From contig NZ_LT629690.1 of the NCBI RefSeq assembly GCF_900102185.1, forward strand, positions 2,294,001 to 2,358,000: 64,000 nucleotides of DNA. The letters run 5' to 3'. Origin of the DNA: Terriglobus roseus (lineage in GTDB: Bacteria > Acidobacteriota > Terriglobia > Terriglobales > Acidobacteriaceae). Positions 7,262 through 10,424 of the stretch are shown here, piece by piece. Each line of letters opens with the position of its first letter. Positions within the stretch are counted from its first letter, which is position 1. Under the pieces are notes generated by a model. It was not told where the DNA came from. It was given only the letters and a program-made list of their open reading frames with translations, and made no database searches. The position numbers and the translations under genes were made by a program.

Positions 7262-8647
7262 ATGACGCCGCTTCCCCGCCGCACATTTCTCAAAACCTCC
7301 GCAGCCGCCGCTGTCGGACTCCCATGGATCGCAAACGAGGCGCAGCACGCAAAGGCCTCATCAGCGACTTCGAAACCGTCGGGAGTCACCATTCATGCGC
7401 GAGAGATGGGTGCCACAGGCGACGGCAAGACCAAAGACACACTTGCCCTGCAACAATCCTTGGATCGTTGCTCCCTGCTCGGCGGCGGTGAAGTCATCCT
7501 CTCCACAGGCGAGTATCTCAGCGGCGCATTGCAGCTGCATTCCAACACCACCTTACGTATCGAAGAAGGCGCTACACTCACCGGCTCACCGGACATGCAG
7601 GACTATCCTCTAGCGCAGGTCCGTTGGGAGGGCAAGTTCATCAAGGGCTACTCGGCCTTCATCAACGCAGTGGATGCATCGAACATTCGCATCACAGGAC
7701 CGGGCCGCATCATTGGCAGCTCTGCGATTGTTGGTCGGCTGGAAAAAGGTACGCGCATGCGCTTGCCCGCGTTGATTGAGTTCACCAACTGTCGCAACGT
7801 CACCGTGGACAACATCTTCACCAAGCAGTTCGGCATGTGGTCGATCCATCCGCTTCTCAGTGACAACGTAACGTTCCGTAACGTCACCATCGAAAGCGGC
7901 GCAGACGGCATCGATCCTGACTCGTGCCGCAACATGGTCATCGACAACTGCATCTTCCGCACGGTGGACGATTGCATCGCCATCAAGAGCGGACGCGGCT
8001 CGGAAGCCTATCGCATGGCGCGCCCATCCGAGAACATTCACATCTCCAACTGCACCTTTACCGACGCGCGCTGGGCCTGTGTCTCCATCGGCTCTGAAGC
8101 GTCCGGCGGCGTGCGCAACGTGGTGGTGGAGCACTGCAAAATCCTCTCCGCATATACGCACGGGGTGTACATCAAAACGCGCAGCGGACGCGGCGCATTC
8201 ATTGAAGACATCACCTTCCGCGACATCGAAGTTTCTGGCTGTCGCGAAGGCTTCCTTCGCCTCAACAGCCTCGGCAGCGGCCTGCAGGATCAAGACCCCG
8301 TTCCCGGTGACGAAGGTCTTCCGCAGCTACGCAATTTGCGCTTCACAGACATCCGCGTAAACGATGTGCCTCAGCTTCTACTTGCGACCGAGATTCACCC
8401 CAAGAAGCCACTCGATGGCCTTGTTCTGGCAAACATCTCCGGCACCTGCCGCAAAGGCATGGAAATAGCCAATGCAACGCACGTCGACATTCGCAATGTG
8501 ACTGTCACCGGCTTTAATGGTCCACTGCTGGCCACTAAGAACGTCACCGGCAAAGGCCTTGCAGGAGCAGTAGAACTGCCCGCATCAGCCCTGCCGAAGG
8601 TCCCCGATGAGATTCTTCCACCGGCAACACCGTACATCCTCAAGTAA
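7262..8647 (+). CDS. Glycoside hydrolase family 28 (polygalacturonase-like), Tat-exported
   Basis: A 461-residue right-handed beta-helix hydrolase. The N-terminus MTPLPRRTFLKTSAAAAVG is a twin-arginine signal (RRTFLK). The mature part starts with the pectate-lyase-like DGKTKDT block and carries the GH28 signatures: DPDSC, then DDCIAIKSG with the catalytic Asp pair, then GSEASGGVRNVVVEHC, and YIKTRSGRG. These enzymes hydrolyse alpha-1,4 galacturonan or related rhamnogalacturonan links. The neighbours do not form a pectin-use operon. The gene ends 23 nt before tRNA-Val. Confidence 0.87.
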   Translation: MTPLPRRTFLKTSAAAAVGLPWIANEAQHAKASSATSKPSGVTIHAREMGATGDGKTKDTLALQQSLDRCSLLGGGEVILSTGEYLSGALQLHSNTTLRIEEGATLTGSPDMQDYPLAQVRWEGKFIKGYSAFINAVDASNIRITGPGRIIGSSAIVGRLEKGTRMRLPALIEFTNCRNVTVDNIFTKQFGMWSIHPLLSDNVTFRNVTIESGADGIDPDSCRNMVIDNCIFRTVDDCIAIKSGRGSEAYRMARPSENIHISNCTFTDARWACVSIGSEASGGVRNVVVEHCKILSAYTHGVYIKTRSGRGAFIEDITFRDIEVSGCREGFLRLNSLGSGLQDQDPVPGDEGLPQLRNLRFTDIRVNDVPQLLLATEIHPKKPLDGLVLANISGTCRKGMEIANATHVDIRNVTVTGFNGPLLATKNVTGKGLAGAVELPASALPKVPDEILPPATPYILK

Positions 8648-8670
8648 GTTTGTTATTCTGTATCAGGAAC

Positions 8671-8747
<77 letters not shown>

Positions 8748-8773
8748 TCATCACCGTTCTCGCAGCAAGCAAC

Positions 8774-8849
8774 CAAAAGGCGATGGGGTTCGCCTTGATG
8801 CCCAGCCCACGGGCTGGAGCTGATGACTCCTACGACAGTAGGAGGCCCA
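8774..8849 (+). promoter_or_regulatory. Fluoride riboswitch (crcB motif) with Shine-Dalgarno-hiding platform
   Basis: The segment has the conserved crcB-motif parts. The first hairpin is GGCGA(8779-8783)/TCGCC(8790-8794) with the loop strand GGGGT (8785-8789). A second hairpin is CCAGCCC/GGGCTGG, followed by GCTGATGACTCCTAC ending at 8833. ACTCC (8826-8830) can pair with GGGGT, as in known fluoride aptamers. The same 3' strand CTCCTAC (8827-8833) is perfectly complementary to GTAGGAG (8838-8844), which contains the Shine-Dalgarno AGGAGG (8840-8845). The two pairings are exclusive, so fluoride binding would free the ribosome site (inference). The downstream CLC gene fits this ligand. Confidence 0.9.
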
Positions 8850-10181
8850 TTGCCCAAAATTGATTTCCGACAAATCTTTAACGAATCTTTCGGCATGGTG
8901 CGTCACCTGCTGCGTTGGATTCCCCTTGCCTGCTACGTTGGCATTGCCGCTGGAACAGCATCCGCTATCTTGCTGGCGTCGCTGACCTACGCAACGAATC
9001 TTCGCGAAAGCCATATTTGGCTGATTCTGCTGCTGGCCCCGATGGGCTGGTTGATGGGCCTGATGTATCGCCACTTCGGCAAATCGGTCGAAGGCGGCAA
9101 CAACCTCATCCTGGAACAGATTCACAATCCCAAAGACGTTATCCCCTTCCGCATGACGCCGTTGATCTTGATCGGCACGTTCCTCACCCATGTCTTTGGT
9201 GGCTCTGCAGGCCGCGAAGGAACGGCCGTGCAGACCGGCGCATCCCTTGCCGACCAACTGACGCGTCCGCTGCGTCTATCGCCTCAGAATCGCCGCATCC
9301 TGTTGATGACCGGCGTCAGCGCAGGCTTCGGCTCGGTTTTCGGCACACCGCTGGCAGGCGGCGTCTTCGGCATGGAAGTACTCGCCATCGGAGCCATCGG
9401 CTACGACGCCATTGCCCCCTGCTTTCTGGCGGCCTTTGTAGGCGACCTGGTCACACGCGCATGGGAACCCGTGATCCCTGGCATTCGCCACACGGTATAC
9501 ACCGTTTCCGAAGTGCCCAGCCTCAACGTGCGCACCATCCTCTACGCGTCGATTGCGGGCGTTCTCTTCGGCCTTGTTGCCATGCTCTTCGCGCGGACAA
9601 CCCATGCCATCGCCAGCACCATGCGCCGCCTTATCCACCGCACGGAACTGCGTCCCGTCGTTGGTGGACTGCTGGTTACAGTAACCGTCTTCGGCATCGG
9701 CTATGCACATACCAGCAAGTATCTGGGACTCGGCATTCCTACAATCGTCGCCGCGTTTCACACACACCTGCCGTTTTACGATTTCGCCGCCAAGCTCGTC
9801 TTAACCGCCGTCACGTTGGGTACGGGTTTCAAAGGTGGCGAAGTCACTCCCCTGTTCTTCATCGGCGCCACGATGGGCAATGCTCTGTCCTCGATAATCC
9901 CCCTGCCGTCTTCCCTCCTTGCCGGCATGGGCTTCGTCGCGGTCTTCGCAGGCGCCGCAAACACCCCGTTGGCTTCAACGCTTATGGCCATGGAGCTCTT
10001 CGGAGCCGAAGCAGGTGCTTACGCCGCGATCGCGTGCATCCTCAGCTATCTCTTCTCTGGTCACAACGGTATTTACCATGCCCAGCGCGTGCAGAGCAGC
10101 AAGTACGAGGACGCGCCCGCAGAAGAACTTCCCCTGACTCTCGAAGCCAAACTGCAATCGGAAGAAAGCACCGAAAGATAA
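8850..10181 (+). CDS. CLC-type fluoride/proton antiporter (CLC-F-like)
   Basis: A 443-residue CLC-fold membrane transporter with about 16 hydrophobic segments. The usual GREGP motif reads GGSAGREGTAVQ, keeping the gating Glu. The helix C region reads EGGNNLILEQI where chloride CLCs have GSGIP; loss of that serine motif is typical of the fluoride-exporting CLC-F branch. I place the start at TTG 8850, 4 nt after AGGAGG. The ATG at 8823 lies inside the conserved riboswitch core and would be translated only from aptamer sequence. The fluoride riboswitch upstream supports the substrate. Fluoride export protects enolase and pyrophosphatase. Confidence 0.87.
   Translation: MPKIDFRQIFNESFGMVRHLLRWIPLACYVGIAAGTASAILLASLTYATNLRESHIWLILLLAPMGWLMGLMYRHFGKSVEGGNNLILEQIHNPKDVIPFRMTPLILIGTFLTHVFGGSAGREGTAVQTGASLADQLTRPLRLSPQNRRILLMTGVSAGFGSVFGTPLAGGVFGMEVLAIGAIGYDAIAPCFLAAFVGDLVTRAWEPVIPGIRHTVYTVSEVPSLNVRTILYASIAGVLFGLVAMLFARTTHAIASTMRRLIHRTELRPVVGGLLVTVTVFGIGYAHTSKYLGLGIPTIVAAFHTHLPFYDFAAKLVLTAVTLGTGFKGGEVTPLFFIGATMGNALSSIIPLPSSLLAGMGFVAVFAGAANTPLASTLMAMELFGAEAGAYAAIACILSYLFSGHNGIYHAQRVQSSKYEDAPAEELPLTLEAKLQSEESTER

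Positions 10182-10346: not shown

Positions 10347-10424
<78 letters not shown>

Follow-up and report, generated by a model that had tools for sequence, protein, structure and literature searches.

Two questions are raised by the leader of clcF, a gene for a CLC-type fluoride/proton antiporter: whether its RNA senses fluoride, and through which change of pairing it would then govern the gene. A preliminary description of this DNA had proposed a very compact translational ON switch. The features that bear on these questions lie within the window, that is, the whole 64 kb stretch of DNA that we analysed:

8671–8747, + strand: tRNA-Val (TAC), ending 22 nt before the aptamer match (ARAGORN, Rfam tRNA)
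8770–8839, + strand: fluoride riboswitch aptamer RF01734 (cmscan, 40.9 bits; gathering cut-off 34 bits)
8779–8794, + strand: stem P1 (8779–8782/8791–8794), whose loop contains the 5′ pseudoknot strand GGGGU 8785–8789 (Rfam alignment, pairs checked)
8779–8787, + strand: left strand of a predicted outer helix, GGCGAUGGG, from the aptamer 5′ strand (MFE; not generally conserved in clcF leaders)
8800–8820, + strand: second aptamer stem (8800–8808/8811–8820, bulged A8818)
8823–8825, + strand: ATG within the conserved aptamer GAUGA, rejected as a start
8826–8830, + strand: 3′ pseudoknot strand ACUCC, partner of GGGGU 8785–8789 in the fluoride-bound form (sequence; RF01734 homology)
8827–8833, + strand: anti-Shine-Dalgarno strand CUCCUAC, left arm of the putative OFF hairpin
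8838–8844, + strand: right arm of the putative OFF hairpin, GUAGGAG, overlapping the Shine-Dalgarno AGGAGG 8840–8845
8846–8854, + strand: right strand of the predicted outer helix, CCCAUUGCC, spacer plus TTG start (MFE)
8850–10181, + strand: clcF, CLC-type fluoride/proton antiporter, 443 aa from TTG 8850 (PDB 6d0j, E 7.9e-58; Pfam Voltage_CLC; start by Shine-Dalgarno spacing and homologues)
10348–10424, + strand: tRNA-Asp (GTC), downstream of clcF (ARAGORN)

Among solved structures, those nearest to the clcF product are 6d0j, 6d0k and 6d0n, entries for CLC-type fluoride/proton antiporters (E 1e-56 to 1e-58); outside CLC-F the next match, the CLC protein 3nd0, reaches an E of only 3e-7, and none of the NCBIfam chloride equivalogs matches it at its cut-off. 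The alignment with 6d0j covers residues 35–424 and holds the glutamates of the GREG and GGEVTP motifs in register, and within these motifs lie the columns of E118 and E318, the two glutamates named in PMC12035849. The two proteins differ at Met79 of 6d0j (GMNL), a column that, by our reading of the alignment, is occupied by Asn (GGNNLI) in the clcF product.

The Rfam fluoride model RF01734 matches the leader along its full length (model positions 1–64, E 6.9e-8), and this is its sole match in the 4.85 Mb genome. The complete crcB-motif core described earlier is thereby upheld, and the covariance search proposed as its check returned a score above the gathering cut-off. Five standard pseudoknot pairs, one of them G.U, join the P1 loop to the 3′ strand. 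The element resembles other RF01734 fluoride (crcB) riboswitches in its aptamer core, both stems, its pseudoknot strands and its place upstream of a fluoride exporter gene; it differs in the linker between the stems, which is off consensus, and fluoride binding here is putative. As for the RF01734 hallmark of controlling a fluoride-toxicity gene, a CLC-F antiporter gene lies downstream and would be the controlled gene. Judged by sequence and predicted structure, 8770–8839 is a genuine RNA of the RF01734 kind, predicted to sense fluoride, ahead of a fluoride-exporter gene.

At the 3′ end of this aptamer, CTCCTAC 8827–8833 and GTAGGAG 8838–8844 form an exact inverted repeat with a 4-nt loop, the latter motif occurring a single time on the + strand of the window. 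CTCC 8827–8830 is common to the pseudoknot and the hairpin, with U8831–C8833 added in the hairpin, and the two pairings overlap and are therefore mutually exclusive. Of the alternatives that the preliminary description gave to CTCCTAC, the pairing with GTAGGAG holds exactly, whereas the pseudoknot strand is A8826–C8830 and not all of 8827–8833. The MFE of the leader (8770–8870) is −41.3 kcal/mol, 3.9 s.d. under that of dinucleotide shuffles, with 0 of 200 shuffles as low. Both the sequence and the predicted folds thus contain an aptamer-exclusive pairing that covers the Shine-Dalgarno.

The clcF 5′ leader is best explained, with high probability, as a translational ON fluoride riboswitch, for which we infer fluoride binding, the order of folding and control of translation. 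With fluoride, the pseudoknot would keep the 3′ strand ACUCC engaged, leaving the Shine-Dalgarno free for translation from TTG 8850. Without fluoride, the 3′ strand together with UAC would pair with GUAGGAG and hide the Shine-Dalgarno, and in the lineage of the window the aptamer 5′ strand would also swing onto the spacer and start codon. Because the ribosome site would be free with fluoride and hidden without it, the exporter would be made mainly in fluoride.

Comparative support comes from about 70 related leaders, in whose counts shared ancestry is ignored. Of 19 genomes in the genus, 18 have RF01734, and in the family it exceeds the cut-off in 246 of 300 genomes. The complete arm GTAGGAG is found in 37 of 40 Acidobacteriaceae clcF leaders and in 8 of 59 crcB leaders (p about 1e-15 by Fisher's test, kinship ignored), and in those 37 it lies no more than 45 nt from the aptamer and 4–6 nt ahead of an ATG, GTG or TTG start (exactly 5 nt in 29). 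The arm keeps its spacing to the start even as its distance from the aptamer ranges between 2 and 19 nt; conservation of the arms as a mere single block would not account for this. In 31 of 31 family clcF leaders, MFE folding joins the 3′ strand to sequence beyond the aptamer, and the whole arrangement also turns up, as exact pattern matches, in a further two families of the phylum. A count of ACTCCATCG outside leaders was left out as confounded, probably by antisense aptamers.

Transcriptional control, whether intrinsic or Rho-dependent, would have the OFF hairpin terminate the transcript and fluoride permit read-through, as in Bacillus cereus. In published transcriptional forms it is indeed this 3′ pseudoknot strand that becomes part of a terminator (PMC11077080; PMC13273304), and Rho sites could secondarily be exposed on untranslated mRNA, but the position of the arm 4–6 nt from the start in 37 leaders is what is expected of a ribosome site, and we consider control at this level improbable. 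Against its intrinsic form, the OFF hairpin is followed by GCCCATTGCC, with no U tract, and a search of 8500–9000 for terminator-like sites (a hairpin plus a U tract) found none.

Still less probable is a degenerate, non-switching copy of the aptamer, in which an altered linker abolishes fluoride binding and leaves the leader locked OFF or constitutive. The linker joining the two aptamer stems is UUGAU where the Rfam consensus has uuuAACC, and this departure probably explains why the RF01734 score is low for the genus (40.9 here and 39.5 and 39.8 in the sisters, with most others at 47–60). Against degeneration, the pseudoknot strands, GAUGA and UAC are all intact, the second aptamer stem carries compensatory changes in the sister species L016, and all three sisters keep both the switch and an open clcF frame.

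The composition of the arm also bears on the preferred reading of a translational ON switch. AGGAG is preceded by GT in 37 of 39 clcF leaders, as against 12% of AGGAG at other places in these loci (39 of 331), and since this GT mismatches the 16S complement (TAAGGAGG), the hairpin is the likelier reason for its retention. The aptamer strand of proteobacterial clcF leaders reads [CT]GCCT[AG]C and the arms GTAGGC or GCAGGC, the arm changing along with the strand. Pairing of arms with their own strand averages 6.90 bp overall versus 5.82 bp when permuted, and 6.93 versus 6.51 bp within Proteobacteria, with 0 of 2000 permutations as high in either set; covariation within Acidobacteriaceae alone is uninformative because the aptamer strand there hardly varies. 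Least probable of all is a fluoride aptamer beside an ordinary strong Shine-Dalgarno, with the CTCCTAC/GTAGGAG complementarity a by-product of an anti-Shine-Dalgarno-like conserved 3′ end: CTCCT complements any AGGAG, which accounts for the 4–5 bp seen in crcB leaders too, but the two extra GT pairs of the clcF leaders argue against it, as do arms that track altered aptamer strands even where the arm is not a Shine-Dalgarno (Proteobacteria). The related leaders thus favour the earlier proposal of a very compact translational ON switch in which the aptamer's conserved 3′ end would act as the anti-Shine-Dalgarno.

A start codon inside the aptamer had likewise been denied in the preliminary description, and here too the related leaders agree. 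ATG 8823 belongs to the conserved GAUGA, and of 40 Acidobacteriaceae clcF leaders only 9 have the corresponding ATG in the frame of the start, no above-chance excess, so that ATG 8823 is best read as aptamer sequence. The Shine-Dalgarno AGGAGG is followed after 4 nt by TTG 8850, and the 3′ end of the genome's 16S contains the standard CCTCC. The clcF start, for which the preliminary description gave no codon, is accordingly best read as TTG 8850 instead of ATG 8823. Assigned by Shine-Dalgarno spacing, the starts of the 40 clcF leaders comprise 20 TTG, 12 GTG and 8 ATG, TTG making up half of them; crcB leaders mostly have GTG.

A crude energy model, which leaves out Mg2+, fluoride and tertiary contacts, places the OFF fold at −41.3 kcal/mol and the aptamer fold at −29.5 kcal/mol plus about −5 kcal/mol for the pseudoknot. 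With the OFF fold several kcal/mol lower, switching would depend on folding order, Mg2+ and fluoride, and the ON/OFF decision would probably be kinetic, taken when the aptamer is complete and the Shine-Dalgarno still untranscribed. The predicted OFF fold holds, besides the hairpin, a second helix (8779–8787/8846–8854) that covers the TTG start; the OFF state drawn earlier had the hairpin with the Shine-Dalgarno and overlooked this helix. In prefix folding the anti-Shine-Dalgarno hairpin appears once 8842–8844 are made and the outer helix not before 8854, an order in which the hairpin would be first to act and would then be locked by the outer helix.

As a conserved feature of clcF leaders the outer helix was rejected, with a mean pairing of 5.7 bp versus 4.9 bp for shuffles, and 6.83 versus 6.67 over a wider segment. 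Among these leaders it is strong in few beyond those of the three sister species, and by this comparison it is lineage-specific. In the family's crcB leaders, an analogous outer helix is by complementarity the main one: the spacer GAACTCCATCGTG can pair with the aptamer 5′ strand, 40 of 64 leaders reaching 8 bp or more (2.7% of shuffles do so), and the anti-Shine-Dalgarno pairing is shorter than in clcF leaders. These two properties of crcB leaders suggest that clcF and crcB may share a single OFF topology with different emphasis. A more specific version, for and against which we would weigh the case about equally, is that the Acidobacteriaceae aptamer is dismantled by both of its strands in one three-way OFF fold, the Shine-Dalgarno being taken by the 3′ pseudoknot strand, and the spacer and start by the 5′ strand (P1 with its pseudoknot loop), with the inner helix prevailing in clcF, the outer in crcB, and both strong in the window. 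In many family crcB leaders (for example L022, L029, L131 and L161), the spacer from Shine-Dalgarno to GTG, GAACTCCATCGT, is complementary over 10–12 nt to GCGATGGAGTTC in the aptamer 5′ strand.

Earlier work has established fluoride riboswitches and their ON logic (PMC2864571; PMC7266159), and likewise that in B. cereus and Thermotoga petrophila strand exchange carries the 3′ pseudoknot strand into a terminator (PMC11077080; PMC13273304). The OFF state of that transcriptional switch (PMC11077080) likewise has the 3′ strand moved into a downstream hairpin, but theirs is an intrinsic terminator whereas the window's would hide the ribosome site. Translational fluoride riboswitches, in which fluoride raises expression, are known from Pseudomonas syringae and Burkholderia (PMC8814607; PMC13273304), and the clcF leader is like them in being without an intrinsic terminator. 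A published covariation motif of aptamer plus hairpin is taken by its authors to span transcriptional and translational platforms (PMC13273304). The proteobacterial clcF leaders found here share the 3′-strand hairpin with the window, but their GTAGGC/GCAGGC arm is not a start-adjacent Shine-Dalgarno, whereas in the window the arm is the Shine-Dalgarno itself, 5 nt ahead of the start. Translational fluoride riboswitches and 3′-pseudoknot-strand exchange are thus already published, and the clcF leader is a compact further case. Our literature search for fluoride riboswitches in Acidobacteria, whose limited coverage makes it weak evidence of absence, returned incidental mentions only. Translational fluoride switches are apparently much less studied than terminator ones; with a very short leader of about 80 nt from aptamer to start, and a conserved 3′ strand that, on comparative support, would double as the anti-Shine-Dalgarno, clcF may serve as a model of small size and as a fluoride-inducible part ready for use.

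The order tRNA-Val (TAC), aptamer, clcF, tRNA-Asp (GTC) is kept in three sister genomes (that of the window and those of L210 and L211), and in L212 a tRNA-Ala takes the place of tRNA-Val at a similar distance. Only 22 nt separate tRNA-Val from the aptamer match, no sigma-70-like promoter was found, and the clcF leader may derive from a tRNA transcript by cleavage. Elsewhere, a weak RF01734 match below the cut-off (23.7 bits; L019, G007:C1:183546-183621), upstream of an unrelated-looking gene (start MIVRGAPAIGVSAAMG), is possibly spurious. In some Acidobacteriaceae genomes there are 11–21 RF01734 fluoride riboswitches apiece, and many of these lie in clusters that span tens of kb; such genomes and loci are L267–L269 (G220:C1:1434000-1493700), G182:C12:699009-832378, G271, G282, G130, G277 and G173. 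The G220 cluster, which comprises an inorganic pyrophosphatase, a SAM synthetase, three cyclopropane synthetases, two dynamin-like proteins, a CLC protein, a CrcB-like protein, an MFS transporter and an NADH-dehydrogenase-like operon, looks like a fluoride-stress island.
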